Below, in pieces: positions 6,801 through 32,200 of a stretch of 64,000 nt of DNA. A model generated the notes under the pieces. The model searched no databases, had not been told where the DNA came from, and worked only from the letters and a program-made list of their open reading frames with translations. How positions within the stretch are numbered: the stretch's first letter is position 1; each line of letters starts with the position of its first letter. Position numbers and translations under genes: made by a program. Source of the stretch: a virus; IMG/VR virus record IMGVR_UViG_3300027881_000012, positions 1-64,000 of that record; one strand, given 5' to 3'.

Positions 6801-7039
6801 TAACCGCCTTTTAAAATCTTCTTGCCATGCTTCATTAACAGCTTGCCGAGATCGATAGCCTGGCCGGCGTTCAAACCAAACCATTTAACCTCTTTTCCAA
6901 AATTAACTATGACCTTGCCCTGGCTGCGATAGATCCCTATTTGTATCTCGCCTTGATCGTGCGGGCTTATTTGGCCCTCCGGAAATTTACCGGTGGCGCC
7001 TAAAAAATCCTCGAGGGTGGCTTTCTTTTTAGTCGACAA
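6800..7039 (-). CDS. Hypothetical phage protein (TTG start)
   Basis: The frame contains no ATG. A TTG at 7039 preceded by AAGGA is the best start (STKKKATLEDFLGATG...), giving about 79 residues; another TTG at 7066 is possible. The protein has alternating strands (EIQIGIYRSQGKVIVNFG) and a C-terminal helix rich in Lys. No family recognised. Coupled with both neighbours by overlap. Confidence 0.55.
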   Translation of the reverse strand: MSTKKKATLEDFLGATGKFPEGQISPHDQGEIQIGIYRSQGKVIVNFGKEVKWFGLNAGQAIDLGKLLMKHGKKILKGG

Positions 7040-7478
7040 GTTCAAATCCTTTGTATTGAGCCTCAAATTTTTTCAATCTCAATTTACCTTTGGTGGATCC
7101 GAAACTCTTACGCCAGTTTTCGCATGATCCACAAAGAATTAAAGCCGATTGCGTTTTCTCGGCCTCGGCGTGAGGCGCGTATTTCACAAAATAATAGCCG
7201 GCGCCTTTGCACTCGTCGCACTGTTCATTAACCGCTTTCGGCTTTGCATCCGGATTGTCGACAAAATAAAGTTTGATGAATTCCTTTAATTTAAACAGCA
7301 TATTATAGGGCCGCCGGCCGAGCTCAACTTTCATTATATCCAAAACGGCCGCCAGTGTTTGCAATTCCAGTTTTTCAACGTGCCAAAACCAGCTATCGAC
7401 CGTCGCATATTGGGGCTTTTCTATGCCGGTCGACTCGTAAAACTCATCCATCAAGAGTCGATATTCTTTAATTTCCAC
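7029..7478 (-). CDS. Putative replication-accessory protein with zinc finger
   Basis: 149 residues. The N-terminal 75 are helical (WFWHVEKLELQTLAAVLDIM) and resemble helicase-loader or DnaD-like adaptors. The C-terminal half has a four-Cys finger, CDECKGAGYY...CGSC. It overlaps the end of the lambda-O-like replication gene by 28 bases, which is where lambda-type phages encode a helicase loader (P-like). The loader role is inferred from position; no AAA motif is present. Confidence 0.5.
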   Translation of the reverse strand: MEIKEYRLLMDEFYESTGIEKPQYATVDSWFWHVEKLELQTLAAVLDIMKVELGRRPYNMLFKLKEFIKLYFVDNPDAKPKAVNEQCDECKGAGYYFVKYAPHAEAEKTQSALILCGSCENWRKSFGSTKGKLRLKKFEAQYKGFELVD

Positions 7479-8350
7479 TGCTTAAATTCCTCCGCGTCTA
7501 TGTTGTTATCCAGGCAATATGTTAAGGCCGCTTGCTGGCCGCTATCTCTCAGGATCCCCGCCGCGATCGTAAACTTGCGCTCTTTAATCCGCTGCTTTTC
7601 AGATGTTACAAGTTTTTTGCTGCGCCTGGCCTCTTGTAAATATCCCTCAAATTTAGTCGGCCGAAATAAAGTGCCTGGCCTCAGATATGCGATCATCTTA
7701 GGATCGCCTAACCATTGATCGGTTTTGATTGTGATAACGTCTTTAATATCTTGCTCGGTGTATCCGGATTTAAACCGCGCTCGGATCGCCGCCCTGGTTT
7801 CCTTTGCCGTATGGTCAAATTTAGATCCGGTCATAGCATTTAGAAATTCAATGATTCGTTCATAAGGTGGGGGAGCTGGCGCCGGTTTTTTTTCGGCGCC
7901 CTTACTTTCTTTTATACTTTCTTTCTTATTTTCTTTTATAAAGGTGCGATTTACTCCTGGGCCAACTGGTGTGGCCCCTGGGCCAACTGGTTTGGCCTGT
8001 CGATCACGGTTTGGCTCCTGGGCCAATGGTTTCCATTTTTTATAATACTTATTAAATCGGTATGTTTTAACCTGTTGATTGGCTCCCAGGCTAACACTTA
8101 TTACATTTCTTTTTATCAGCTTAGATCTTGCTTTTCCTATGTGCCATGATGGTAGTTCGGTCAAGGCCATCAGCTCGCCGGTTTCAATTTTAGCTGACTT
8201 CCGACCATAAACACCATACGTTAATCTTAAAATCGCTGTTATTAATCGGCTCTCTGCATTGGTGAATTTTGTCTTGCAAAGCGCCTCCAAAATCTCGTTT
8301 GCTATCCTGGTATAACCATCCTCGAGCTGTGGGGCGCCTTTATCCGGCAT
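7451..8350 (-). CDS. Phage replication initiation protein (lambda O-like)
   Basis: 299 residues. Residues 8-105 look like the Phage_rep_O winged-helix origin-binding domain (DGYTRIANEILEAL, LRLTYGVYGRKS, IGKARSKLIKRNVI). A Pro/Gly/Lys linker follows (110-160). Residues 163-240 match the conserved phage C-terminal domain (PF09524: IIEFLNAMTGSKF...ITIKTDQWLGDPKM). It should bind the origin and recruit the host helicase. Tandem repeats encoding the linker resemble iterons, as in lambda ori inside O. GGAG precedes the ATG, and a structured RNA lies directly upstream. Confidence 0.85.
   Translation of the reverse strand: MPDKGAPQLEDGYTRIANEILEALCKTKFTNAESRLITAILRLTYGVYGRKSAKIETGELMALTELPSWHIGKARSKLIKRNVISVSLGANQQVKTYRFNKYYKKWKPLAQEPNRDRQAKPVGPGATPVGPGVNRTFIKENKKESIKESKGAEKKPAPAPPPYERIIEFLNAMTGSKFDHTAKETRAAIRARFKSGYTEQDIKDVITIKTDQWLGDPKMIAYLRPGTLFRPTKFEGYLQEARRSKKLVTSEKQRIKERKFTIAAGILRDSGQQAALTYCLDNNIDAEEFKQWKLKNIDS
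7905..8034. repeat. Tandem palindromic repeats with flanking AT-rich tract (candidate origin)
   Basis: Two directly abutting 21-base repeats at 7956-7976 and 7977-7997 share CCTGGGCCAACTGG and differ at two positions; a partial third copy lies at 8017-8034. Each holds an inverted repeat (GGCCAA...TTGGCC in the second). The 50 bases to the left (7901-7953) are AT-rich and strand-biased (CTTTC/TTTTA). The repeats encode the replication-protein linker PVGPG-x-x. The layout matches lambda ori, but a purely coding origin of the repeat is possible. Confidence 0.5.
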
Positions 8351-8370
8351 CTGTTTTGATCTCCGCCAAT

Positions 8371-8442
8371 AAAAAAGCCTGGTAGTTTTCCGCCGGTCTG
8401 TAAAACCGCTATGGCCTCACAACCATAGAAACTACCAGGCCC
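8371..8442 (-). ncRNA. c4: C4-antisense-like three-way-junction RNA
   Basis: Read on the minus strand, a perfect 12-bp outer stem (GCCTGGTAGTTT with AAACTACCAGGC) encloses two hairpins: CTATGG-TTGTGAGG-CCATAG and CGGT-TTTACAG-ACCG. The outer stem is followed directly by TTTTTT, so it can also end transcription. This two-hairpin junction and sequences such as GCGGTTTTACAGACCGGCGG resemble the C4 antisense RNA of phages P1/P7 (Rfam RF01695), which blocks translation of the antirepressor. Here it sits between the XRE repressor gene and the replication gene, so it may act on, or attenuate into, that transcript. The target is not identified. Confidence 0.6.
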
Positions 8443-8459
8443 GTAATAATGTAGCCTCC

Positions 8460-8684
8460 TTACAGAGTTGCGGATTCTTCTATATTAAATAGCTCGCCCC
8501 TGGGCATTTTAAGTGCCTTTGCTATCTTTTTTTCTTCCTCGTCGGTCGGCCGCATCCGGCCGCGTTTAATATTTGAGATTGTACCCTCCGCTATGCCGGC
8601 CAGTTTGGCTAAACCGCCTTGCTCGAGTCCATTGTCGCGCAGCGCCTTTTCCATAGCCCAATTATGATACTTTTCGATTTTCAT
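8460..8684 (-). CDS. XRE-family repressor
   Basis: 74 residues, essentially one Cro/CI-type helix-turn-helix (LEQGGLAKLAGIAEGTISNI, then KRGRMRPTDEEEKKIAKALK) with the PRGELF end typical of such regulators. GGAGGG lies before the ATG. It is transcribed away from the divergent promoter region at 8.7-8.8 kb and probably controls both promoters. It lacks a CI-type oligomerisation or cleavage domain, so it could be Cro-like rather than a lysogeny repressor. Confidence 0.8.
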   Translation of the reverse strand: MKIEKYHNWAMEKALRDNGLEQGGLAKLAGIAEGTISNIKRGRMRPTDEEEKKIAKALKMPRGELFNIEESATL

Positions 8685-8713
8685 TTATCCCTCCGATTTT
8701 GGGTGTAATCTAT

Positions 8714-8742
8714 TTCTTAAAAGGATAGGAAAACTTTGTCAA
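8714..8742 (-). promoter_or_regulatory. Candidate promoter for repressor and leftward genes
   Basis: On the minus strand TTGACA (8742-8737) is followed, 17 bases on, by TAAGAA (8719-8714), a weak -10. It points at the XRE repressor gene. Its -35 lies back to back with the -35 of the rightward promoter (TGTCAAT...ATTGACA), so binding at one would affect the other. Confidence 0.5.
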
Positions 8743-8757
8743 TAACAAAAAAAGGAA

Positions 8758-8787
8758 TTGACATAGTTTTTTTTAGTAGTGTATAAT
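8758..8787 (+). promoter_or_regulatory. Strong sigma70-type rightward promoter
   Basis: TTGACA (8758-8763), an 18-base AT-rich spacer and TATAAT (8782-8787): both hexamers match consensus perfectly. It faces the early plus-strand genes starting at 8894. A second TATAAT at 8841-8846 has no matching -35. The leader 8790-8893 contains no gene. Confidence 0.8.
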
Positions 8788-11986: not shown

Positions 11987-12319
11987 ATGAAGCAGAAAGC
12001 TAGACCGGAATTTCCGCCGGACCGCATTAAGCGGATCCGCGCCTATTTCAAGGAAAACGCTGAAACATTCGCCAGGCGTTTTGAAGTTACCGGCAAAACG
12101 GTTGAGGCATGGGAACAAAACCGGCGCCAGGTCAAAGGGCCCGCCCTGGTGGTTTTCCGCCAGGTGGCCGAGGTAATGAAACATTATTGCCCTGTGTGCT
12201 CGCGCATCCTCTCAAAGGTCGGCCGCAAAAAGTATTGCCGCGTTTGTGAGGTAGGCGGTGGCCGCGTTCTCGAATTTAATAACGGTTATATTCCAAAAGT
12301 GACGAAAGGAAAGAGCTAA
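11987..12319 (+). CDS. HTH regulator with C-terminal zinc ribbon
   Basis: 110 residues from the ATG at 11987 (AAAGGAG). Residues 12-55 form an XRE-type helix-turn-helix (ETFARRFEVTGKTVEAWEQN, RRQVKGPALVVFRQV), as in MqsA/HigA-type proteins. CPVC...YCRVC (about 66-83) is a zinc ribbon. The order is reversed from MqsA, which has its zinc domain first. Its stop overlaps the SbcD start by 1 base. Probably a regulator of the recombination genes. Confidence 0.7.
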   Translation: MKQKARPEFPPDRIKRIRAYFKENAETFARRFEVTGKTVEAWEQNRRQVKGPALVVFRQVAEVMKHYCPVCSRILSKVGRKKYCRVCEVGGGRVLEFNNGYIPKVTKGKS

Positions 12320-13545
12320 TGAAAATCATTCATACCGCAGATTGGCACCTTGATGCCAACATAGTAGAGGCCGGCCGCTGCCTAAAGTTTTTGGTGAACG
12401 AGGCCTCGCGGATCCAGCCGGATCTTACGATCATAGCCGGCGATATGTTCAACTCGGCCGATGTGCGCCTGGATTCCCAGGCCGCCCGCCTGGCTATGGA
12501 TACAGTTTGGAAATTAAAAGAGTATTCCAGGTATGGCGTTATCATCTTAATCGGCACACCGTCGCATGACGGCCTGGCCGCCACTATCTTTGATGGGATC
12601 CCTAAAGTGATCGTCGCGGATAAACCTAACTCGATCATCTTTGATGTGCCCGACGTTGGATATGATAATTTTTTGGTTTCGGTCCTACCGCAGCCCACAA
12701 AGCAGTATCTTGAATCGGTACTCGAGGGGGATATTGAAGATTTAAACATGGCTATGGGCACGAAATTAACCGCGATCTGTACCGGTTTCGGCGCCTCGAG
12801 CGTTCAATATTCTGGCCCGCATATCTGCGTCGGGCACTTCTCGGTTAGTGGCGCCATGCTCTCGCCCACTCAACAAATGATCGGCTACGATATTGAGCTG
12901 TCCACATTTCAGCTAAAAATGGCTCGGCCTACTCTGTGGTGCCTGGGCCATATCCACCATGCCCAGGAAGTCGAACCAGGGATCCTTTATTCTGGATCTC
13001 TTTATCGCGTTGACTTTGGTGAACGCGCCTCGAGGCCTGGCTTTTGGGTCCATGAAATTATATCCGCCCAGGATCCAAAAGACGCCCTTAAATGGCTGCA
13101 TGATGTTCAATCGGTCTTTATGGAAACGCCGGCCAGTACCATGAACAAGGTCAAGCTCGATCGTTTAGACGCGGATCCGGATGCACCGATCAAGATTGAG
13201 GATAGCGAGATCGAGGATAAAATGCAGATCGAGGTCAAATGCTATGCCGATCAAATCGAGGTTTTAGATTTTCACATTATCAAGGATGATCTAATCGCCA
13301 GGGGAGCTAAAGAGGTCGACGTAATTGTGCAAAGGATCCCGCGCCCGAATATCCGCAGCGCCAAAATCCTGGCCGTTGAGGCCTTGCGCGATAAGCTAAT
13401 CGCCCGCGCCGAGCTCACCGATGATGAAGTGGCGCCAGGCGTATTGGAGAAAGCGGACCTGGTTGAAACGATGGAGTCCGAGGCGGTCCTGGCTATCATC
13501 AAAGGAAAATTTGCGAAAGGGGGATCTAAGAATGAAATTGATTGA
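12319..13545 (+). CDS. sbcD: SbcD-like nuclease (Mre11 family)
   Basis: 408 residues. Metallophosphoesterase motifs are in order: DWH (D8, H10), GD (41-42), GTPSHDG (79-85, in place of the usual GNHD/E), GH near 172 and GHIHH near 211. The N-terminal 270 residues are the nuclease; the rest would be the capping and SbcC-binding part. It should open hairpins and trim DNA ends together with SbcC, encoded next with a 14-base overlap. The altered third motif keeps the His and Asp but replaces the Asn that contacts metal in many relatives. Confidence 0.85.
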   Translation: MKIIHTADWHLDANIVEAGRCLKFLVNEASRIQPDLTIIAGDMFNSADVRLDSQAARLAMDTVWKLKEYSRYGVIILIGTPSHDGLAATIFDGIPKVIVADKPNSIIFDVPDVGYDNFLVSVLPQPTKQYLESVLEGDIEDLNMAMGTKLTAICTGFGASSVQYSGPHICVGHFSVSGAMLSPTQQMIGYDIELSTFQLKMARPTLWCLGHIHHAQEVEPGILYSGSLYRVDFGERASRPGFWVHEIISAQDPKDALKWLHDVQSVFMETPASTMNKVKLDRLDADPDAPIKIEDSEIEDKMQIEVKCYADQIEVLDFHIIKDDLIARGAKEVDVIVQRIPRPNIRSAKILAVEALRDKLIARAELTDDEVAPGVLEKADLVETMESEAVLAIIKGKFAKGGSKNEID

Positions 13546-16000
13546 TCTGAAATTAAAAGGCTTTATCGGCCTTAAAAAGGGAATGGGCCTTGACGAGATC
13601 TCGCTACCGCTCGGGGATCTTTCCGGCCTGGTCGCTTTTGATGGGCCCAATGGCAGGGGCAAAACTACCATACTTGAAAACATGCAGCCTTTCCGGACCT
13701 TCGCCAGCCGCAGGGGCACTTTGAAAAAGCACTGCTTTGCAAAGGATTCTCAAAAAGAGCTCACGTTTGAATATGACGGCGATATTTACCGGACCTTAAT
13801 CAAGATGGATGCACACACCACTCGACCGGATGAGGGCTTTATTTGGGTAAACGACAAGCCGGTGGTGGATGGCAAAGTCACCAGCTACGATGAAATGATA
13901 AAAACGATCTTCGGATCCTCTAACCTGTTTTTTTGGTCGATCTTCTGCGCTCAGAATTCCAAAAAGCTAACCGATCTGACAACCGGCAAAATGAAAGAGC
14001 TCTTTACAGAATTTTTAAGGCTCGATCGATACGCCGTTTATGAGGATACGGTCAAGCAGGCCCTCGGCATGGTGGCCGGCTTTGGCCAGGCTGCCGCGTC
14101 GACCGCGCTCCGGATCGATGAGGATCTGCAACAACTTAAAGGGATCCGGCCGGCCGAGATCATCCACGATGAAGGTGATCGCCTGGAAAAAAACCAGGCC
14201 ATCTTTGAGGAAAACGAAAAGAATATCGCGCTACTGCAAAAAGGCGTTGAGGATGCAAAGGCGGAAATCGCGGCCAATAATGAAAAGGCCAAACAGCGCA
14301 AAGCCTTATCGCTGGATCTTGTCGCTGCAAAGCATGAGCTCACGGATCTATCAGAAGAAAAAGGCGATAAGCTGACCGCGCTCGCTGAAAAGCAAATGCA
14401 CATTGATACCGAGATCAAGCGGATCAAGCGAATTTTAGGGGGCGCCCAGGCAATTAAAATAGCTGCCGATCGATGCTTTGTCATTGATACTCAAAGCAAA
14501 GCGTTGACCGGCGAGCTCGATATTGCATACAAGGCCCGCGAGAATCTTCAAAAAGAACGCGAAAACCTCAATCATCATGTAGCTGAAAAAGAGCGGATCC
14601 TTACCGAGTGCCTAAATAGCCCGCTGGTACTAAAGGCCGAGGAAAACCTGGCCGCCTTGCGCCAGCGGTTGATCGACGTTCAAGAAACGACGATTGAAAG
14701 GGATCCGGATTATACCGTCATGCAGGCCGAGATCAAAGGCTTAGAAAGCCGCTCGAGCGCCCTGGATAAAAAAGACGCCGATTGTATCAGTGAAAAATGC
14801 GGGCTCATTATCGATGCCATCCAGGCCGCTAAAGATCTCAAAGAAAGGCTGTTAGTTGTCAGCGAGTATGAAAAAGGCTGGCACCTGGGCCACCAGGAAA
14901 GTATTGACGAGATCCAGGTAAAACTTTCCGACGGCATTAGCCAGGTTGCCGCCTTAAAGGATAAATCCGGCGAGGAAATCAAAGAGTCTAAGATAAACCT
15001 ATCGGGAGCAAAGGCTAAAGTGCAAATCATCGATGATGATTTAGAGCCGATAAATAAATCGATAGGCGTTAAGCTGGCTCAAAGAAAAACGCTTGCTGTC
15101 GAATTCGGTGATCTTACCGACCTGGCCAAACAGGCGCCGGATCTGGAAATCGCTACCGCCAGGCTCATAACCCAGGAACAAAACGAGGATGCTATCAAAT
15201 CGGATCTGGCCGCCCTGGAAAAGGAATATGGCGCTAAGTTCATAGCCGGCAAGGAGAAGATCGACAAGGTAGCCGATCGCATGGCCACCATTCACGTTAA
15301 TGAAAAAGCTGAAAAGGCATGGTCCGATCTTGTCCTCGAGCTAAAGAACGCCGGCCAGGACCAGGAGCACGTTTCAAAGTGGATCCGCGATTCTGAAATA
15401 AAAATTATGGATGCTCAAAAGATGCAAGAAAAGATCGGTGCCATGCACAAGGATCTTGAAAAGGCCCTGGCCGATCAAAACGTGGTGTCGACCGAGCAGC
15501 TGGATTGGAATTATTTAAAAGATGCCTGTGGCAAAAAAGGCTTGCAGGCCTTAGAGATCGACGGCGTTTCACCGGTTATCGAACAGTACGCCAATGAGCT
15601 GTTGATCTCAACATTCGGGCCCATGAATACCATTAAATTTCAAACCCAGGACGAGGATATGAAAGAGGTTTTAAATATCATCGTCATGGATCCGGACGGC
15701 ACTGAAACGATGCTTGAAAACAAATCCGGCGGTGAAACGGTATGGATCCTAAAGGCTCTGCGCCTGGCGCTCACCTTGCTATCAAAGGAAAAATCCGGCC
15801 GTAACTTTCAAACGGTCCTCATGGACGAGGAAGACGGCGCCTTATCGCCGGCTAATGCGGTCAAGTTCATTAGCCTTTATCGATCAATGATGGATCTCGG
15901 CGGTTTTGATGATTGCTATTACATATCGCATAAGCATGAGGCCGTCGGATTGGCAAATCACCGGCTTGTTTTCGGTGAAACAGGCGTTGAAATTGACTAA
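13532..16000 (+). CDS. sbcC: SbcC-like SMC-type ATPase
   Basis: 822 residues from the ATG at 13532. Walker A GPNGRGKT (38-45); long coiled coils from about 180 to 690; ABC signature KSGGET near 731; Walker B TVLMDEEDG near 762. Length is somewhat below E. coli SbcC (1048). At the midpoint (about 417-422) is DCISEKC, a C-x4-C pair where the zinc hook normally has CxxC. Works with SbcD in end resection; phage T4 gp46/47 and T5 D13/D12 are comparable pairs. GGGGG precedes the start inside the sbcD end. Confidence 0.88.
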   Translation: MKLIDLKLKGFIGLKKGMGLDEISLPLGDLSGLVAFDGPNGRGKTTILENMQPFRTFASRRGTLKKHCFAKDSQKELTFEYDGDIYRTLIKMDAHTTRPDEGFIWVNDKPVVDGKVTSYDEMIKTIFGSSNLFFWSIFCAQNSKKLTDLTTGKMKELFTEFLRLDRYAVYEDTVKQALGMVAGFGQAAASTALRIDEDLQQLKGIRPAEIIHDEGDRLEKNQAIFEENEKNIALLQKGVEDAKAEIAANNEKAKQRKALSLDLVAAKHELTDLSEEKGDKLTALAEKQMHIDTEIKRIKRILGGAQAIKIAADRCFVIDTQSKALTGELDIAYKARENLQKERENLNHHVAEKERILTECLNSPLVLKAEENLAALRQRLIDVQETTIERDPDYTVMQAEIKGLESRSSALDKKDADCISEKCGLIIDAIQAAKDLKERLLVVSEYEKGWHLGHQESIDEIQVKLSDGISQVAALKDKSGEEIKESKINLSGAKAKVQIIDDDLEPINKSIGVKLAQRKTLAVEFGDLTDLAKQAPDLEIATARLITQEQNEDAIKSDLAALEKEYGAKFIAGKEKIDKVADRMATIHVNEKAEKAWSDLVLELKNAGQDQEHVSKWIRDSEIKIMDAQKMQEKIGAMHKDLEKALADQNVVSTEQLDWNYLKDACGKKGLQALEIDGVSPVIEQYANELLISTFGPMNTIKFQTQDEDMKEVLNIIVMDPDGTETMLENKSGGETVWILKALRLALTLLSKEKSGRNFQTVLMDEEDGALSPANAVKFISLYRSMMDLGGFDDCYYISHKHEAVGLANHRLVFGETGVEID

Positions 16001-17050: not shown

Positions 17051-17259
17051 TGGATGAAATACCTAAACACGTTGGAATATTTGCCGGCTCAAAGATATAT
17101 TATGCGGATCCGCATGATATGGAAAGGGCTAAACGGTGGGGTAGGCTCATTCACACCGAGAAAGGCCTGGCGTTTTATATTTGGAATAATGTTACCTACG
17201 TCGCGCCGATCGATGATCCGCCTATGCTTCAACTCCTAATCGGTGGAAAGGGCTCTTAG
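17038..17259 (+). CDS. Small hypothetical protein
   Basis: 73 residues: MDEIPKHVGIFAGSKIYYAD, HTEKGLAFYIWNNVTYVAPI, compact and beta-rich. It overlaps the prepilin gene by 13 bases and its TAG stop overlaps the stop of the giant minus-strand gene. Several in-frame Met codons make the start uncertain. No family recognised. Confidence 0.55.
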   Translation: MDKMMDEIPKHVGIFAGSKIYYADPHDMERAKRWGRLIHTEKGLAFYIWNNVTYVAPIDDPPMLQLLIGGKGS

Positions 17260-17290
17260 CGGGCCCTTTCCGCCGCCTTTTTCTTTAAGA
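17245..17290. terminator. Hairpin terminator at convergent gene ends
   Basis: GGAAAGGGC (17245-17253) and GCCCTTTCC (17263-17271) form a 9-bp stem whose 9-base loop contains both convergent stop codons. On the plus strand GCCGCC and then TTTTTCTTT follow, giving a rho-independent-like terminator for the rightward genes. In the other direction the hairpin lacks a T-run but could still stop or stabilise the late transcript. Confidence 0.65.
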
Positions 17291-20200
17291 ATTTCCGCCT
17301 GGTTTCATAGCGCAGTTTGCGGGGTTCTTCCTTCCGATAAGTTAAATCATACCATTTGATCGCTCTTTCCAGCGTTTTGAGTTGGGCCGGATTTAAGTCT
17401 TTTTTAAACTTGAACCGGTCCATTTTTTTGACGCCGGCCAGCGGGTGAGATTGTTTGATCGCCTGTTTTAAGCTCGAGGGCTTTCCGCCGAGGTCGTAAT
17501 ATTTCATTAGATACCGCTCGGCCGCTTTGAAATCACCGAATTTTAACGCCTGCTTGTAATAGTAAAGCGCATTTCCTCTATTGGTGGGCTTGCCATACGA
17601 TACCTCGATACCTTTATCCTTTTTCCAATCAAAGATCATATTGCGCGTATCATAATAGGCCTGCTCGCCTGGATCCGAATTATAAACCACCAGCCTTTCC
17701 AGGTCTGAAAGGAAATGAGTCGCCATGCTTTTGCCTCGCCCAGGCCTGCCCCTGGCCCGCCGGTAAATGGCATCCAGGCTAAAGGTTCTTAAAATATGCT
17801 CTTTTGTATCGCGGATCGGTCGCGGGCTAAAGGGATCCGGATAAGTGGCGTATCCGGTGGCGGCCTCCATGAGCATTTTAGGCTCTGGCCGGATGGCATG
17901 AAACAACCTGGTTACTAATGCCTTTGGCACTTCGATCAATTTCTGTTGGATCGTTTTTTCGCCCTTCCATAGCTCCTTAACATCTTCCGGAAAATCCTCT
18001 AAACCGAAAAAGCTCAGTGTATCTGATAAGGCGCCCTGGAAACGGATTGACATAATAGATCCATCCTCGCGCCGGCCTAAGATTAAATGCAGCTGCCGGC
18101 GTCCGGATTTTCCAAATTCTTCTTCTTCCTCTGGCCACAATAAATGATTGTAAATATTGATTAAGGTGTAAAGCATGGCCGCCTTTGCGCCGTATGCGAG
18201 CCCTTTTGTAAGTGCTTTTTTGGATGCAATCGCCAGCGGGCGGGCGCCTGGCTCTCTGCCCTCATAGCGCACATTTCGCAGCATATAGACATATCTTGGT
18301 GAATTGATCTCCATCCATGAATAAAAAGGCATCAACCGTTTGCGGATCCACTGGCCCGAGCTGCTTATATTTCCATAATCACCGACCAGCTCGCGGGATA
18401 GTTTGGCCGCTCGCTCTGTATCGTTCTGAATCGCGTCTATTTCGTCCGGCTTGGATGCACCATACACCCGCTTGCCTTTGGCTATTTCTTGCTTAAAATG
18501 CCTAAATGCGGCCAGCCTAAGTATGTTTTCCCTGGTGGTGGTGGCGCCTTTGGCCAGCTGCCAATAGCGCATAGCAATATTGGGCTTTTCACCCATGATG
18601 ATTTGACGCACAAATTTATCAGTGCCCATCTTTTTGGTTATTTCTTCAACCTCTTGAACGGCCCAACCGGATCCGGTCACTCCTAATTTGCGGGCTAATT
18701 GTAGCTCGGCTTTAACGGCCGCGCCGGCCTTGCCCTTATTAAAGGCCCTCAGATCTCGCAGTGATTTAAAAAATCCTTTTAAGATTTTCGGATTATAGGC
18801 CAGGGTAATGTCAAGATCGCCGCTCATGTTGTTGATATTGTATTTCATAACGCGCATCGGATTAATGAGGATATACTGTTTCCACATTCTAAGGGATGCC
18901 TCGGAGATCCGGCCGACCATGCGCTGCTCGATCTGCGCTTTGAAATTATCTAAGGTTTCGGTCAGGCCTGTGGGCATCACCCATATAATATCGCGGCCTT
19001 TAGCGAGGATCTGTTTTACATCATTGTCTTGCAGATCGCGCTCGCCGGCAATCACCTGTTGCAATACATTATCGGCCAGCGTATTGGCCCAAAACCAGCC
19101 TTTACCAGGCTCCGGTTTCCATTCCTCGTATCCTTCCGGTATGAGCTGGCGGAAAGTCAAAAAGTTTTTGCCCAGGGCAGTTTGAACGTGCTTATTTCGG
19201 GCATGAATATTTTTAAATATGGTGGCCGCCCAGGATGCCCCAGGTTGACCGGTCCGGACCAGGTAGGCCAAAAAGTCAAAATACCTGGCGTCGGAGATCC
19301 CCGCCGGCGCTCCCTCTAAATCTTCTTTTTTGGCCCGCTTGATCTCTGCGAGCTGGTCGATTATATCGGCAAATTCTGAATCGCCGCCGAGCTTGTCGTT
19401 AAATGCCATATTTTCAAGCTGGCTCGAGGCCATAGCGATCTTTTGACGATATGGAAAAAGCGGATCCAGTTTGCTATCGGCCATCACTTCGCCCACTGTT
19501 ATCTCGGTTTTAAATTGAATTGATAGCTGCCTGGCCGCTTGTTTGTAAAAATTAGTTAAATTCTCGCGCTTGGCCTGGTCTTTAAGCTGGCCGTAAATAT
19601 CCGCCTGGCGTTTGATCCGCTCTAAGGTTTTAGCGGTTTCCAGCTGGCCGAGCTGCTGTGATAATGCGGTAAATTCGGCCTCGATATACTCGGTGTTATA
19701 ATCAAGTAGGGATCCCTTTCTGGCTGCCATCCAGGGCCGCCAGTGCTGCCTTACATCGGCGGATCCGGTCGACACACCCTTATTAGTGTCTTTCAATCCC
19801 CAATATTGCAAAACCTGATGGTGAAAATAATCCTCATGTTGCAGTACTTCTTTTTTGAGGATCTTAAATTTAACCAGCTGGCCGACCATGTTATCAATAT
19901 AGGCCTTTCGATCGCTCAAAGCGGTGGCAATTTCCGGATGAATTTCAGCCAGGCGCTTAAATTGGGCATCGGCTGTCTGAACGTCTTGGATTGTTTTAAA
20001 GCCAAAAGGCAGGGTTTCGCCCTCGCGCAACATTTGATCGTTTAAAAGGCCGGTTTTAATATCGCGCATCATATCGGCCAAGATGATATTCATTGTGTAA
20101 ATATCATAGGCATCGGTGCTCAGATCCTTGATAAAGTCTTTCATCTTTTCGGCTGTTATCGATCTTGCGTTTTCGGGGATCTCCTGGTGGATCCGGAGTA

Positions 20201-23200
20201 TATCGGCCAGCTGCGCCCGCTGTTTTTTATTCTCGATCTTTTCTAAGCCTGGGAAGTGGGCCCGCTCCATTTTGAGCTCGGCCAGCTTTTCTTTTGTCGT
20301 TGCCATAAAAGAGCCCTTGCCCACACCTTTGGCCGCCGCCATGCGCCTTGCAACATCTTCGGGTAGGATCCCGCCGTAATCAATCGCTTTGCCGTATTTC
20401 TTCTTTTTAAATGCGGGGGTCTGGCCAGGAAAGGCGCTCACCCTTTGGCCGGTCAAAGTGAATTGCCGCGCTGCTGCAATAAGGGCTCTTATCTCCGGAT
20501 TAGATAGTTTAATATCAAGATCTAATTTCCGGAGCCAGTTTCTAATCGCCGCCACAAGGCGATCATACCATTTTGATTTAATGCCGAGCTGCGCCTGGTT
20601 AGCAAACCATTCCTCGGCTGCCTGCATCTGACCATCCATAGTGGTTAGATCAAAGCCCAATTCCCTGCCGATCTTATCGACTTCATTCTTTTTGGCGATA
20701 TAAAGATCTCGCAATACCTTAAAAACATCTTTCCCCTCTTTCCCCAGGGTGCCGCGTAATCCATGATGGCCGAATCCTTCATGCAAAATAGTGGTTACGA
20801 TTTCCTCATTGGATCCAATATTATCAGCTACCAGGTAAATGGTGTTTTTATAATAGGCGCCGGTAATTATTGAATTCTCGCGGCCGTCTTCTTTGATAAA
20901 GTCCATGACTTCTGGCGGTAAGCCCTGTTGCTCTTTATATACTCTGATTTTCGGCCCAGGCGCCGCCCATTGAGCTGTGACGGTTTCGACCGTCGTATTA
21001 ACATCTTCGACGGTTACAGGATCCGCCGGCGCTATTAGTTTCCTGGCAAAAACCGGACTATCACCTAAGATATAGTCAAAGGTTATCGGCGCCACTTTTT
21101 GATCTAAAATATCCTGGGTTTTCTTTGGGCTTGGCACTTTGCCCTGGTCCGCGAACGAAACGCCGTTGTGCCTAAACTCAAAGAGCTGCATCATATTGCC
21201 GCCGACGTTTTCATTCCACTCGGTTAAAAATTTCATCCGGCTATTTAATTCTGCATCGGTGCCTTTGGAATTGAATATAAAAACAGAGGCATTAAGGCGC
21301 TCGCCCTCGGCTATGATCTCCTTTAAATTTTCGCTTGCCGTTTGCCCTGGCGTAAACTCCACAAAGCCGAGATCGTTCAGCTTGTTATCTAAAAATAAAT
21401 AGCCCTGGCGGTCATTGTAATATTTTTCTAAATGCGCTGTTAATTCCCCTGAATTACTAATCGGGCCGCCGCGCCTTTTGCCGCGCTCAATAAATCTTTC
21501 AACAATCGGTATTGTTGTCTTGCGGGTTGTTTTTCTAATTTTACCTTTTCTTTTAACGCTTGGCGCTGCTGAAATGGGGCTGTAAAGTGCCCACACATCG
21601 CCGCCCACAATGATATTTTCGATCTCCACTCCGCCGGCTGCCGCCATTTCAATCAGCGTGTAGGCCATAGCGCGATCCTCCGGCGAGGGGTCCGCCTCTG
21701 CCGAGGGGTGATTGTGGATAAAATAGGCCTTTGTCACACCTGGGGTATTGAATAGCCGGCCGACCGTTTCAACAATGGGTATGCCGACCGCTCCCCTGGC
21801 ACCTTTGGCGATAAAATGCACTTCTTTAATATTGCCCTGGGCATCGACCGAAATCATATAGCCCTTTTCCTGGGCCTGCTCTGTGATCGGCTGTATAAAG
21901 GCCGCTGCATCTTCCGCGTTTGCAATAACATGGCTTTCAAAGCCCATTTCTCCGGTCGATCTAATTTCTACTTTCTGTGTCGGCTCCGGAAGTGCCTCGA
22001 CGGCCTTTTCGGTTTTGGCACTTTGAGCATATTCAAGCAGATCCATTTGAATGGCTTTTTTGCCGGCCTGGATCTTTTTAGCAACCTTGCCGGCAAATTC
22101 GGCGCTGGCCTCGCTTAATGTTGTATCTGCTATCCTGGGGCCCTGGTATCCGCCGGCTATGTTTGTAACCGGCCGGTTTAACAGGATCCGGTCAAAAATC
22201 TTTTTATTGTTTTTTGTGGGTATAAAGACGCGGGTTTTAAAATTTATTTCCTCGATGATCGCGCCTTGCTTTTCTAACAAATCAATATCTCGATGGCCAA
22301 AATCTAAAAGCTCGATCCGCTCGTCACCGGATACCATTGATTTTTTAAATGCCCATCCGTTTGCCAGGGTTACGCGAGCGCCGCCCAGGATCTTAGCGCC
22401 CAAAACGCCTGACTTTACCTGGGGTGCATCGGCGCTCGCTCCCAAATTGGTAAGCACTTGATCTAAAACATTGGGGTGAATTACGCGGCCCAGGAGCCTT
22501 TCACCGGCGTCTGTTTCCATCCGGTAAACGGTTGCAAAGCCTACCAGGCGATCCCAAACGCTTAAAAGATCTCCGGTTATTAAATGAATATCTCGGTCGG
22601 TGGTTTCTGGAATGTTGGCGTATTCTGCCGCCCATATCCGCGCCGGTGAAAGATCGGGCTTATCGGCTAATTTAATCCATTTATCCTCATCGGTTAAAAT
22701 ACTTTCATCCTGGCGCTGGATCGTATCGTTTGGAGATTGCATTTTCCGATAAGCAATAATGGATCCGGTTGTAGTGGTTCTATCCCTGGTTTCGCCGGCC
22801 GCCCATACCCTACCGGATTTTATATTTTGATAAAAATTAAGGTGTGAAACGTCCTCAAAGGCAACTCGCCTGGATGGCTCGGTCACGCTAACACGCACAT
22901 ATTTTGTTTCCGCTCCGCTTTCCGGATCTGTATGCACAACTCTTTCAGACTCCTTTTCAACTGCCAGGCCGTCGATCGTTTCAATTCCCACATCGAGGGT
23001 GCCGGCCTCCGCGTGTGCCTGGATGATCCTATCGAGCCGATCGGAAATATCACCAAAAAATGTATTTTGAGAATTGATGGTCATTGAAAGCATCCGGTTT
23101 AAAACCTTTGTCATTTCCGGAAGTTCGCCCGTAAGTCTGCCGGTCCGCTCATCGACAATCTGCAATCCGGTCTGGTGTTGAAAATCCTCGGCGCTCATTT

Positions 23201-26200
23201 CCAGGGTGCCGGCAACCATATCCTCAAAGGTCTGTACCAGGGCCTCGCGGGCATAATCAGACTCTAAATTATCTCTGGCTTGAAAGATGCCCTGGGATCC
23301 GGCTTGCCGCTGGCCTTTGGTTAATGCGCCGAGCTGGTCAAGGCGCCGAGCGATCGAGGTCACAAAACGCTTTTGTGCTTTTAGATTGGTAGTAATAAGC
23401 GTGTATTTCGGCGCCTGCCTTTGGTTGGATCTGTGAGAGCGGCCCAGGCCTTGCACTGCTGTCGAGGCTTTCCAGCCTGGCTGCAATAAATAATGTTGTC
23501 GCAGCCTTTGATTTTTATATCGTTTATCGGCGTGATAGCTGACTCCGGTACCGCCGGCCTCAGAAAAAATCAAGATCTGTTTTTCATCATTTTTAAAGGC
23601 CTCAACATCTGCTTTAGCTTTTGCGAGGCTCCATTTTTGATTGATATACTCGCCGGTTTCCAGATCTTTAACCACTCTTGATTTTCTGCCCGTTACCTCG
23701 GCAATCTTATCAGTTCCAAAAACATTAAATAATTGATCCAGGGGAGAATCGGGGATCCGGAGTGCTCCGATCTCGCGTAGCATGGCATCGCGCATGGCTA
23801 CTGCCTGCCTATTTTCAACCGGATCGCCGGCCTCGTCGCGGACTAAAACAGCATATTCATTTCCATCCTTATCGGTCCGTATCTCGTATTGTTCAATCGG
23901 AAAGGCCCTTTGTAGATATTCTGAAATTGCAATACGGGGGGTAAAGTCAAGGTCTTCCAGATCTTCGCCCTCTTGCCGGCGTTCAAGAGCTCGCTGGACC
24001 GCAGCATCATTAGTTTGTGTAAGCTGGATAATAACCGACTCACCATCTGCAATATTCTTTTCCATCTTCCTGATTAATGACGGCATCTGCATGGCGGTCA
24101 TTATCGAGTCAAACACTCTTATCTGTGTGCCAAATAGCCGGCCTCTGGCCGCCATCTTTGCCCTGCCGGACTTATTGCCGTTGGTCAGTTCAAGGGCGGC
24201 CTCAGTGTTGCGCATGATGACTTGCCAGGCCTCCGCTAATTTGTCGTAAATATCGGTTTGTTCCTCGGTTAATTCATGCACTAAGCGATCATAGATGACA
24301 CCATCATAAGAAAGCGACGGCGCCATATAAAGGCCCCTGGCTTTCATGCCCCTGGCGATCATTTCCATAGCGGCCAGGCCGGATTTATTAATCTCCGCGA
24401 TAAAGGCCCGCTTGTCTGCAAAGGAAGTGCCCTCACCCCACAATCCCAGGCGCTCGGCATAGGCAAAATTACTCACTTTGGTGGCGCCGGTGGCCGATAC
24501 ATATATCACCCTGGCTTTAGGCAACATCGTTTGCAGCAAGACGCCGGCCAGGGCTTTGTCGGCCGTCGGCTTTCTGCCCCTGGCGCCCTGTTCTTGCATC
24601 GAGTTTGCCATATTGTGTGATTCATCAAAGGCGATCACTCCATCATAATCGGCGCCGGCCCATTCCACTATTTGATTAATCCTGGCCCGCATATCGTCAA
24701 AAGACTCCGGCTTATTCAGATTGATCTTTTTAAAGCCCTGGCCCAATGTCGAATAGGTTGAAAATAATATCGTGTTATCTCTATGTTTAGCTTTTACTTT
24801 TCCGCCGGCTGCTGCCGCTTTATTCAAATTGACCAGGGCCTTTGCTCCCTCGCTCCATCCCATTTCAATTATATCGCGGCTGGCGTCATTCAATAAGCTC
24901 TGCTTTTCAGTTAGCCAGATAGCCTTTTTGCGGCCCTTGTTCCAGTTATCCATCATAATAGAGGCGATAATCCGGCCCTTGCCAACTCCGGTGCCATGAC
25001 CGGCAAAGGCGCCCATGCGGGTGCCATCCGGCAAAAATCGTTCGTGCGCCTGGCCGGCGTAAATACTAAATTCTAATTGCACATTGGAAATGCCGGCGCT
25101 CTTTTTCGTCGGCTTCAATATGTGTTTTGGTAGATCTGGCTTGTAGGTGGCCTTTGGTAAATCGGTATCGGACAGGGCGGCCGTTTCAACTAATGGCGTC
25201 GGGTGCGGCCTGGCGCCTTTGACTTCAACATTCGGCTGGTATTCCTCATATAATGAGGCCTTAATTTTTTCGCGCTTTTTCTTCCTGGCCTGGATAAGAT
25301 CTTTTCTCACTGGCGCTGGTGCTCGCGCCAGATCCGGCCGGTCGGTTGTATAATAGTATTTAATCCAGTTTCGGCCGACTTCCGGATCAATATTATATTT
25401 AGCCAGGTTCACCAAAACATAGCGGATCCACTCTTTTCTTTCGCCTTTAAATTCAGTGTAATTTGCATCAAGTATTGGTTTGGCCTGCTCATAAGCCTGG
25501 GGATGCAATAAGGCCTCAAATGCAGCGGCCGGCTCTCTGACTTCGGCCGCTGCCTCTAATTGCGTTTTAGGAAAGATCTTGGTGGTAATGTTGTCAAGCG
25601 TCTGAATTGATCGCGGAGCTGCGCCGGCCTGGTTAATTAAACCGCCATAGGCCAAATAATCATCGAGCACAGCATCATAGGCCTCTAAAAAATCCCTGGC
25701 GTCTTTTTGATTGGCAAAGAAAATATCTTGTTCCAGGCCTGGCACATTCATTTCAATCGGGTCCGAATCTGCGATATTTGATAGGGGCTCGATTAATTGC
25801 TTTAATATGCCTCTCGTATCTTGGGCCTTTTCGGTGCCGTATTTGCCTATTTCCTCGGCCCAGGTCTGCGTCATTAAATCAAGTTCTTTGGCTTTGACAG
25901 TGGGTTTATATTCTGCGGTGGGTTCTTTGATATTGCCTATAATATTGGCAATAGCAGCGAATTGGCCTTGATCGGTTTTAGGTATCTTGCCCTTTACAGG
26001 CGGTTTTTTAGGTGCGGCCTTTTTGCCGCCGGCCGGTTTCGCGGTTAGATCTTCTTCCTCGATAACCTCATTAATAAGAGCGTCTAAATCATCTAAGCTA
26101 AGGTCGGGGGCTTCGGGTATCCCCTCACGCTCTCGCTCATCGCCTGGTCTAATTCGTTCACCAGGTCGCTCGCCAGGTCTTGCGGGTTCTCCTGGTTCGA

Positions 26201-29200
26201 TTCCAGCTCCCTCAATCTCAGGTAGCCGGCCACCTGGTTCGGTTGGTGGTTCAATAGCTCCGCTAATTTCGATTCCAGGGGTTGCACCAGGTTCACCAGG
26301 CCGGACTCCTGGGCCCACACCAGGAATTGCAGCGGGTGGAGCTCCTGGGGGTTCGGCACCTGGCCGCTCTGTTTCAGGAATTTGCTCGACAGGCGCGACA
26401 CCGGCAACCGGTTCAAGTTCTTCGCCTGGTTTATATATTGTTTGTCGGTCATTTCTAACGCCCTCCAATAATGGGATTAAGTCTTCGATTTTATCGACTT
26501 TTCCACTTACTAAATTATACGCCTGTGGGCCTGTTTTGTCAATGATTATCAAGCGATTATCAAACGTGGTGCCATACTTCTTATACTCCTGGCCAGATAT
26601 GCCCACATTGGCCGAAACGGTGTAATCTTTTTTGATGCCTTTCCACCATTTTGTGAACGCCGGCGCGTTGTCTGCCATGCCCTTGCCGACGATCGCCACC
26701 AGGCGCCCGCCATCTTCTAACCTGGCCAGGGCTTGCTCTATTTGATCGGCGCCAAACTTGGTTGCTCGCTTGCCCAGGACTCGGCCGGCGGTCGCGGAAA
26801 AGGGCGGATTCATTACAATTACGGTGGGCTTAACAGTTTCGGGCAGTATATTATCAAGCTGGCTGGCATCCTCAGTGAAAACCGTTTTAAATCCCATCTC
26901 GCCCAATAGGGCCGCCCGCCGTTTGTCCAGCTCATTGACAACAATATTATCACCGACAATTTGCCGGCCAAAAATAGCAAGCCCGCCCACACCGGCCGAG
27001 GGTTCAAGGTATGCGTCATTTTCTTTAATGTTCGCTACCCAATTCGCCACATAGGCCAGTGGTGGCGGGGTGCTAAACTGTTGAAACTCTCCTTGTTCCC
27101 TGGTTCTTTTGGTCTGCGTCGGTAGTTTTGCGATCGTATCTTTTAACCATGCGATATTTTCGACCGCGTTTTCCGGATCCCGCATTGTGAGCTGGTCGTG
27201 AACATAGATATTAACGCCTTGCTCCATAGCATCATAGGCGTCTTTAGGCGTATATTTACCCTGGGCCTGGGTGCCGGCAAAATCTATATCGGCCTGCTTA
27301 AATAGATCTCGCCAGGTTATCGATTCATCTTTGACTAATTTTGTATTTATCCAATTAGCCAGCTTTGTGGATCCGGCCGCCTTTTCGTGCTCCGGAGCTG
27401 CCTTTTCAGCTGGCGCCGGCGCCTCGGCCGGTCGATATTTTTCAATTTCTTGCGTTGTGGCCAGGGCCAAGTCATAATCATTTTGGGTAAAATCCTTTTC
27501 GCCAGCTTGAAAACGCTGCATGGTTTCAACGGCTGTGTCAAAAACGTCTTGGATTTTTTCGGCCGTTTGGCTCTCGATAGGCTCGCCATAAAATACCTCA
27601 AAGGCGGTTTTCTTTTCTGCCGGTGCCTCGGCCTCTACTCTCCATCGGCCAGGCATCAAGGGCACAACATCTTTTTCAAGCACTAAACGCTCGGCATATC
27701 CGCCAGATACCGCGCCGACCAGCTCCATAAAATCATCCTCGGTCATAGCTCGCGGTGCATCTTCCGGAAAATAAAACTTGATCCCTTTATCCTCGGCCTG
27801 CTTAATCTTGCCGGCTAAAATGCCGGTGGCCTCGGTCCTGGCATCGTCGGTGCGTTTCGGCGGTTTTGCGATTACATCGGCATTTCGGGCCTGGATAAAT
27901 CCGAGCCTGGCTGCCGCATAGTTAGGATATTGAGTAATGGCTACAACCTCGCCGGCGTCTTTGTCGACCACTCTAACCGTTGATTGTGCGCCTGGGGCTG
28001 CATCGGCGGTCGGTCGCCATAGCTGCGTTAATACGCCGATATTCTCGCCTTTGGCAATCAGCTTGCTTTCTGTTTCTCTGATACTGCGCACTGTGCCGAT
28101 TTCATCATCTAAAAACGGTAACTCAGCCAGGGGCTTTTCTTCCGGCGCTGCCTCTGCCGGCGGTGCCTCAACTTTGGGCGCCTCGTCTACGATCCGCCGG
28201 ATTAATACGCCTTTGGTGCCAGTGGCTTTAATCCCTAATATTTGCGCTGCCTCTACCAGGTCCGGCTTTGAAAATGCGGTTAGCTGCCGGTGCGATAAAT
28301 CGATCTCGCCGCGCTGGATCCGGCCGGCCAAGATTTCGCCATCGGTCTTAGTGGTGATAGTGGGCGGGGGAGCCTCGACCGGCGCCGCCACTTCTGGCGG
28401 AGCTGCCAGGTCAATTTCAAAATGTTCTTGTAAAGATTCTTCCTGGGTTTTCGGCTTAAACATCTGTACTTGCTTTTTAGTATCTGCCGCCGCGTCGGTC
28501 GCGTATGCTTTCCAGCGTTCTTTGTGCCTGGTGGGCTTGTCTTTGATAAGCAGATCCGCCAGCTTTTCGGTAACAACCGTATATTCGGGCTTGGCTTCAA
28601 ATAAAGGTTGCTGTGCTAAAAGATCTCTGACGCTTAGATCCTGGGCCTGGGCTGCGGTCGCCAGACGTAAACCCTCTTTAAGATCCGACGTTATATCCCA
28701 TTTGCCGCCTCGAGCCTTAACCTTTGCCAGCTCGGCCAGGGATTTTTCAATCTTGTTTAGGTGGGATTTTTGGGCGCTATTGATAAGATCGAGATCATCC
28801 ACAATATTACCGAAAATGGCCAATTCGATTACTTCTTTACCCCTTTTGTTCAACAAATCGCCCTTTTCGTTCAAATATACGTTCTTTTGTGTCGCAGAGA
28901 TCGCGCCATCATCGATGAGCCAGCCGAGGATTTCAAGGCCGTCTTTCTTGCCCAGGAGCTCACGCAGTGAAATTTCGCGGTCGGTCAACCGGATCCCTAT
29001 TTTTTCCATCGTCGCCGGCTTTATCGCTTTGCCCATCGAGGCGGTTTCCGCTGCCTGGCCCATGCCCTGCGTCATGGTTTCGTTGAATTCTCGCGCCAGG
29101 GCCCGCATTACATACTCGCTTTCAATCCGGATCCGGCGGATCAATACCGGCTGTTTCATCGGCTTTATATCTTTGGGCGCCAGGCCAAATTTAGAGGCCG

Positions 29201-32200
29201 CCGCTATCAGCTGGTTTTTATACCTGGCTGCCTTTTTAGGATCCTTAAAGGCCAGCTGGATTGACATAGTTCTGGAATTTCCGGATATAACAAAATCGCT
29301 TTGATCGACAATCGGCGGGCCGCTGGTAGGCGTCGGATCATCTGAAAGTAAAATCCGAGGATCCAGCTTGTTTGCATTTGTTATAACTTTTGCTTGCTCG
29401 GCGGTATCAGAATGATAGGCGCGTTCCTGTATCCCTTCCGGATAATCGCCGTAAGGCTGGAATGTTTCGGGGTTGTGGCTTGGAAAGAGTGTGCCGGCCT
29501 CAACTACCGTGTAGTGTGCTCGATGGCCCTCTGCATTTTGCGGTGTTATGATCCTGGTTTCGGCCTTTTTTGATATGGGCTTTGGATAAAACTTTTCCGC
29601 GATCGGCCTAAGTTTATCCAGCAAATCATCCATATAGGCCGCTTTGCGTTTGAAATGATCGTATTTTAAGACCGGATTCTCAGTGACTCCTTTTTCCTCT
29701 AATTCCTTTGTGTAGGCGTTTGCCTCGTCGCGCTTATCAACAATCCACTGCCGCGCTTTGTCAATCGTTTCATAGCTGCGGGGATCCAAAACGCCCAGGG
29801 CTATCTTGACATAACTTTCCTCGACTCCACCAGGCTTGACAAATTCCTCCCAGGGTTTCGCCGGCAAAGTGGCCTCTGGCGGGCTGGTGGGCTCCGGAGT
29901 GGTTGCTCTCTGTGGCGCCACCCTGGGCCCGCCCTTTAAGTCCGGTTTTTCTTCTGGCACTGCTGGCATTTCCGGCGGGGCTGCCTCTAATTCTGCCGGT
30001 GGCTTTACGGTTTTGCCGGCCTCGACTTCATAGCCCTGGCGCCTTAATAATTCAGCGTAAAATTCATTTAAAGGATCAAGCGGATCCAGGGCCCGATCGG
30101 TGGCATACTCCGCGATCGTATTAATGCCCAGGCGCTCCATATCGGCTGGAATATTGGCCACATCTCGCTCAACCTGGGCCCTGGCCTCGGCTAATTGTTC
30201 CTCGGCGCTCATCTTATCCCAGGCTTTTAATCCGGCCATTTTTCTTAACGCCGGCATAACGCCTTTAACGGCCGCCTGGTTTTTTGCAAATTCTCTGACA
30301 ATCCGCTGCGTTGCTGCTGCACCTTTGGGCAGGGCGGGAGCCGGCGGGGGGGGTGCCGCCGGCTTTGCGGGTGGGGCTGCTGCGGTAGGTTCTTCAAACA
30401 TATCCTCGGCCGCTGTGGCCGCGCTCGGTCGATCTTTAAACATTCCCAGGCTGGCACCTTCGGGGCTTACAAGTTCAATTAAGGTGCCCTCCGGTAATTT
30501 ATGCTCAACAAGGCCCGCGCCTGTATCCAATATAAAAGAGGGCTCGCCGGCTTTGGCTGCCGGTGCCGCTTTCCATCGAGGCCCTAATTTTTTTACCGGC
30601 GGGGGAGCTGCCGGCGGTTTCTCTGGAACAACCTCGACTTTTTTAGGTGGCGCCGGCGGAGCTGCCTTTTTCATTTCAAAGGCTGCCAGGTCCGCCCGCA
30701 TGAGCCCTAATTTTTCTTTAAGGGCCATATCTTTGTCTTTAATCAGATCGAGGACCGATTTCTTTTGCTCCGGCGATAAGCTGGCCACTAAATCATTATA
30801 TTCTTTTTTCAAGGCCTCCGGCTTTTGTGCCTTTTTAATAATGCCGGCAATCTCTTTAAAGGGCTCGCCTTTCTTTTTGGCCTCGAGCGCCTGGGCATAT
30901 CCCTTGATAACAGTATCGACAAAACGCTGTGCCTCGGCCTTAGTTTTATGAGCTCGGCCAGATAATGTGAACGTGGCGCCTTTGGCCGCGCCGCTGGTCA
31001 CTGTCATTTGCAGGCCGACCGGTTTCTCGTTCTGATAGATCACATTGTCAAAGCGGATCTTAGCGCCGGACTTTTCGCCCATTTCATCGGCCAGGGCTTG
31101 AAAGGTTTTGCGCTTAGAGGGCGCTATCCTGGTCGGTGCCTCGCGCTCGGCCTCAACTTGCGCCACTCTGATAATACCCTCCGGAGCTTTCGGGGGCGCT
31201 TTTGCCGGCGGGGCTTTTTCGGGTACCAGCGCCGTTACTGGCTCTGCGGGCACTTCGACCGCCGGCGCTACTTCCGGAGCCTCGGCCGCTGCGGCCTCTA
31301 ATTCTTCCGCCGTAAATTCGGCTGCGACTTCCTCGGCCTCGATGCCCTCGGCTCCGACAAATTCCCTGGGCGCTGTGGGTGGGATTTCCTCGGCCGGTAC
31401 TCTTTCGGCTGCGGCCTCTGGCGCCAGGTCTTCATCTAATAAAATATCCTCGGCCGTCTGGCCGTCATAATCTTTTAAAAGGCGGTCTATTTGATCGCGG
31501 GCCTCTTTGCCGGCTGCCTCGACTTTTTTCTTGGCTCTGCGCTCGGCAACCACTCCATAACCGTATTGAGTAGATGCGGCCGGTCCGCCTAATACTGGCT
31601 CCATTACCGCGCCGATCCGGCCTTGTTCATGCACTCCCTCGAATAAAGACCGCTCGGATCCAACAAATTGGGCCGCCGCGTTTGACACCATTTTCTGGCC
31701 GCCTTCCTCAACATAACCGGCGCCAGATTGTTTTGCGGTCCATAAAGTCGGCCTGGCCACTGCCCAAACGCCTTTTTTTGCTAATTGGGCGCCCTTTTTG
31801 CTCATGGCTTTTTGTACGAATAGCCTGATGAGCTCGCGCTTCATGGCCTTTTTGCCAACATTCTTGCCAAAGTGTTTCAGTAAAGCAGGGCCAAAACCTA
31901 ACCGCTCACCCAGGCCCTCAATAAATGCTGATGGTATAGCGCCAATCAATGTGAGATCCGACTTAACCTCATCGGGCACCTTGATGCCCTCTCTCCTTTC
32001 CAGCTCCGTTAATTCGGCGTCGATTTCTTTAACAAATTGCGGAAATAAAACCGCGCCGGCCATTAAGGTGGCCAGGCCAGGGCTTTTGGTGGCGGTCTGC
32101 ACTCCCATGTAAGTGCCGATTGATAAAAATGAATTGACAATATTAGTTGAAATAGTTTCACCCCAAAAGATACCAGGATATTTGACTTCGCGTTCTTCCT

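Follow-up and report, generated by a model that had tools for sequence, protein, structure and literature searches.

The window analyzed here comprises 64,000 of the 65,064 bases of an IMG/VR virus record. The locus of interest lies on its minus strand, in an apparent leftward operon. The first gene of this operon (8460-8684, minus strand) encodes a 74-aa Cro/C1-type HTH regulator (HTH_3, E 4.3e-8; phrog_8, transcriptional regulator). It is followed on the same strand by a gene for an O-like replication initiator of 299 aa (7451-8350; Phage_rep_O, E 1.3e-20; Phg_2220_C, E 7.6e-26) and by a conserved gene of 149 aa (7029-7478), which matched nothing in Pfam or PHROG and is 70% identical in the related contig L002. 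From 8894 onward the genes to the right point the opposite way. The record was also searched for an integrase (PF00589) and a resolvase (PF00239); neither was found, so the HTH protein could not be called a lysogenic repressor on that ground.

Several other features of the window were recorded. One minus-strand reading frame (17256-33482; 5,408 aa) takes up about a quarter of its length, and the phage encodes SbcD-like and SbcC-like proteins, a palindrome-specific nuclease, at 12319-16000. Near the left end, the gap between two leftward genes is filled by a 31-nt inverted repeat with 84% complementarity (661-745), whose inner stem is followed by T5 on the plus strand and T4 on the minus strand, and which looks like a bidirectional terminator. 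The protein encoded by its upstream neighbor (746-1102) had no match in the five relative records described below.

Visual inspection of the sequence upstream of the HTH gene suggested a putative leftward promoter (8714-8742, minus strand) made up of TTGACA (8742-8737), a spacer of 17 nt and TAAGAA (8719-8714). The TTGACA is kept in relatives, also as read by eye. This promoter is absent from the list of our promoter scan because its -10 box is poor and fails the -10 rule of the scan. Divergent from it, a rightward promoter with TTGACA, an 18-nt spacer and TATAAT (12 of 12 matches) is present at 8758-8787.

The stop codon of the HTH gene and the start codon of the O-like gene are separated by a gap of 109 nt. 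A Shine-Dalgarno-like GGAGG directly follows the HTH stop codon (8455-8459, minus strand), a candidate site that the element described here now separates from the O start. This element (8371-8440, minus strand) lies inside the gap on the same strand as both genes, and its stem starts 19 nt after the HTH stop codon. It consists of a 64-nt stem structure (8440-8377) and a U6 tract (8376-8371). The 5′ arm of the outer stem (GCCTGGTAGTTT, 8429-8440) and the 3′ arm (AAACTACCAGGC, 8377-8388) were located with an inverted-repeat scan and with pair probabilities; they form a perfect 12-bp inverted repeat (8440-8429 with 8388-8377) that runs straight into six T, leaving the U6 tract (8371-8376) flush with the stem. 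The first-pass annotation had described a 12-bp outer stem with a TTTTTT end between a repressor and a replication gene. The stem, the T run and the position between the HTH and O-like genes were confirmed in the sequence. The arrangement is that of an intrinsic terminator, with a stable stem immediately before the U tract, located at the 3′ end of a gene or operon segment and in the same orientation.

The folding of the element was predicted on both strands. On the minus strand, the minimum was one long unbranched rod (-37.5), in which both of the loops proposed in the first-pass annotation pair with each other. The nine outer-stem pairs nearest the U run had probabilities of at least 0.999 in the element alone and stayed at 0.97-1.0 when up to 337 nt of leader were co-folded, while the three innermost pairs of the outer stem were looser (0.75 to 0.25). 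The 12-bp arms are 40 nt apart, a long distance for the loop of a terminator, but the rod fold closes this region. The same annotation had placed two hairpins inside the outer stem. They can indeed be drawn, as a hairpin of 6 bp with the loop TTGTGAGG (8409-8428, minus strand) and a hairpin of 4 bp with the loop TTTACAG (8394-8408, minus strand). As the minus-strand fold, however, they did not hold up: the branched two-hairpin form reached only -33.7, about 4 kcal/mol worse than the rod, and its inner pairs had probabilities of about 0.001, as expected of a minor conformer. Only on the plus strand was the branched fold the MFE structure (-28.0), and there no T run follows the stem.

The anatomy of the element was compared with chance. 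Under the requirement of a perfect 12-bp arm immediately followed by five or more T, with a spacer of at most 60, the window contained one case and 300 first-order Markov shuffles contained none. In a looser scan, six cases with arms of at least 7 were present in the window (shuffle mean 2.6); the next-longest arm in the window was 8, and the longest in 40 shuffles was 10. The MFE of a 91-nt stretch was -37.9 compared with a dinucleotide-shuffle mean of -22.1 (z -5.4), and none of 200 shuffles was as low. These results show that the terminator anatomy is non-random. Energy alone does not single it out: when all structures of at most 90 nt with a T run at their end were considered, the value of -37.5 was unexceptional, as the best folds in four shuffled windows were -37.2, -30.7, -39.2 and -31.2.

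Relatives of the locus were collected with the neighboring proteins, which yielded five other IMG/VR contigs that carry an HTH as well as an O gene; a search with the O protein alone found nothing. Two of the contigs, L020 and L039, agree in 99.9% of 1,500 bases, which reduces the five to four distinct lineages. The order of the HTH and O genes was kept and the hairpin was absent in all five (four distinct). The distance between the HTH stop and the O start was 9 nt in L002, 14 nt in L004, L020 and L039, and 12 nt in L041, compared with 109 nt in the window. With the HTH stop only 9-14 nt from the O start in relatives, the two genes look co-transcribed. L041, whose record is 63,192 bases long, is the nearest relative; its O protein shares 73% identity with that of the window. 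Blastn of the gap against the relative records revealed no homologous DNA beyond 20-base matches (E 0.03). Ten further, distant O-like loci were found, and seven of them were checked for terminators upstream of O; the matches of the other three (L013, L016 and L017) begin inside the gene and were left out. No 12-bp-type stem was present upstream of O in these seven loci, and one of them (L008) showed a weak terminator candidate at a T4 run. The simplest history suggested by this comparison is that about 95-100 nt were gained in the lineage of the window; loss of the element in all the other lineages appears less likely than gain. Because the element is present in one assembled metagenomic record only, it may also be an assembly error.

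No second copy of the element was found in its own record or in the five relatives, and patterns with 11- or 12-bp arms at the spacing of the element had no match in viral_contigs. The arm-pattern search of genome_contigs gave one match, inside an ABC permease reading frame, which folds ordinarily (z -0.7 and -0.5) and was rejected as a second copy. Blastn of the element against phages returned 14 records (best E 0.05), and the best of these, an unannotated faecal record, contains a different hairpin with different arms. The single plasmid record (E 7) was without structure, and was likewise discarded. Short matches were present in records G003 and G005 (E 0.03); the one in G003 lies inside a portal gene and folds ordinarily, and it was not accepted as a copy.

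The first-pass annotation had called the element a C4-like antisense RNA, and we were particularly interested in whether this assignment would stand. C4 RNAs (RF01695; C4 of P1 and P7, cI of P4) share with the element a small size, a place in an early phage operon and an outline in which an outer stem can be drawn enclosing two hairpins. In P4, the C4 homologue, which RF01695 detected in the P4 sequence, belongs to the leader of a replication operon and controls this operon by termination. If the element were a divergent RNA of this type, it would be processed from the leader, and its two loops would pair with phage or host mRNA, either blocking translation or triggering termination in the manner of C4 in P1. 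In PMC5320573, C4 RNA is described with three stems, processing by RNase P and loops a′ and b′, and PMC2864571 lists C4 RNA as a table entry. The cmsearch with RF01695 that had been proposed as a check gave no match at the element in the record of the window, even at E ≤ 10, while the controls P1 C4 and P4 cI matched with 68.8 and 74.9 bits. The scan of the window at Rfam gathering scores showed no Rfam match of any kind at the element, and a permissive cmscan of 8200-8700 gave no C4 but four chance matches, the best of which was mir-196 (17.7 bits, cut-off 55.4). We also built our own covariance model from nine C4 RNAs and ran it with filters off. On the minus strand the element received 2.0 bits, which ranked it fourth among ten matches at chance level in 501 bases; its plus-strand score was 4.9 bits. 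Twelve other places in the window scored 8.7-17.6 bits, above the element, and three members of the model, used as controls, scored 75.1, 86.9 and 101.5 bits.

The structure and the possible targets also speak against a C4 RNA. The outer stem is 17 bp in the C4 model and 12 bp in the element, and the element differs further in its unbranched predicted fold and its U6 end; an outer stem around two hairpins is not its main fold on the minus strand, where that branched form has a probability of about 0.001. In a C4 RNA the loops should be complementary to target sites (a1/b1) close to a ribosome-binding site. Loop complementarity, another check that had been proposed, was not above shuffles in the three flanking stretches: 41 to 302 of 500 shuffles did at least as well as the best duplexes that the two loops formed with the upstream gene, the O start and the right-operon leader. 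The c4-a1b1 target family, which in P1 adjoins C4 just upstream (Rfam scan), had no gathering-level match in the window. An alignment of the element with P4 that was better than 498 of 500 shuffles was discarded, as it used the plus strand of the P4 record (L024) and the C4 RNA is on the minus strand; with the corrected strand, no convincing similarity to the P4 C4 was seen. In the same record, the Rfam isrK family matches at 1696-1773, just upstream of the C4 homologue (60.8 bits, cut-off 50). The element is not a C4 RNA and the antisense reading is unsupported, and we consider a divergent member of this type very unlikely.

Other explanations of the element were weighed as well. The rod and the branched form are about 4 kcal/mol apart, and the first of the two hairpins would be the first transcribed, which is consistent with a regulated RNA switch whose state would set the readthrough into the replication gene: the loops would pair together (rod, terminator), or else fold into two hairpins of their own or bind a factor. 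However, the outer stem is kept in both forms, so both would terminate; co-folding revealed no antiterminator in the upstream leader that competes with the outer stem, and a homologue for a covariation check was not found. We regard such a switch as unlikely. Slightly less probable still is a lineage-specific, non-C4 RNA device inserted at the cro-O junction, where a phage or host factor would select the rod or the two hairpins and the resulting readthrough would switch phage DNA replication. A similarly low chance is given to the insertion of a small mobile palindromic (MITE-like) element between the genes, either neutral or with termination as a side effect. The perfect terminal inverted repeats and the absence of the insertion from all relatives seen would fit such an origin, as would a TTATT (minus strand) 4 nt outside each arm (8449-8445 and 8372-8368), read by eye as a possible 5-bp target duplication. 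Against it stand the lack of a second copy in the record and the five relatives, and the arm patterns at this spacing, whose sole match in viral_contigs and genome_contigs is the ordinarily folding one in the ABC permease gene. Moreover, a T6 run placed precisely at one end would fit a terminator, but a transposon would not be expected to have it. The least probable explanation, to which we give hardly any credence, is a put-like RNA antiterminator as in HK022, that is, a leader RNA of about 70 nt that would modify RNA polymerase to pass later terminators. According to PMC9378689, putR measures about 70 nt, has two stem-loops and lies about 270 nt past the start of PR; the element is of similar length and starts about 267 nt after the predicted transcription start, at a like distance into an early operon. 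On the other hand, putRNA as described in PMC9378689 consists of two side-by-side stem-loops with no enclosing stem, whereas the element is enclosed by a 12-bp stem and ends in U6; its predicted effect is opposite to that of put, and it has no Rfam match at gathering scores.

Taken together, we consider it likely that the element is a strong intrinsic (factor-independent) minus-strand terminator, gained in this lineage and serving as a cis-acting attenuator within the regulator-replication operon. The first-pass annotation had offered an attenuator role as an alternative to the antisense RNA, and this alternative is supported by the stem with its T run, by its place in an apparent operon and by its absence from relatives with the same gene order. 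Leftward transcripts would start at the promoter upstream of the HTH gene and yield the HTH mRNA. Most of them would end in the U6 tract, which would leave a short regulator mRNA (about 337 nt) with a stable stem at its 3′ end. Leakage or a putative antitermination factor would let a fraction read through, and this fraction would supply O and the genes downstream of it. The promoter scan gave no sigma70-like minus-strand promoter in the interval from the HTH start to O, so expression of O seems to rely on polymerases reading through the element. Such an attenuator in cis would lower the expression of the replication gene relative to the regulator, and an antisense target would not be needed. 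The ratio of regulator to replication protein would be raised relative to the relatives without the element.

The closest known counterpart in position is found in lambda, where tR1 separates cro from the replication genes in the PR operon. Like tR1, the element is placed after a Cro-type regulator and before an O-type replication gene, in what appears to be one operon. The two differ in their signals: tR1 is Rho-dependent and overlaps nutR, according to PMC3526286, whereas the element has an intrinsic stem and U6.

The feature is ordinary in kind but new in this phage lineage, where it is a putative attenuator. The locus also shows that the outline of an outer stem with two hairpins is insufficient for calling a C4 RNA. 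It provides a clear example of a terminator arising inside a regulator-replication operon in one lineage, while in at least four related lineages the two genes almost touch. If termination takes place as predicted, gaining such an element would be a one-step way for a phage to shift the ratio between its regulator and its replication protein.
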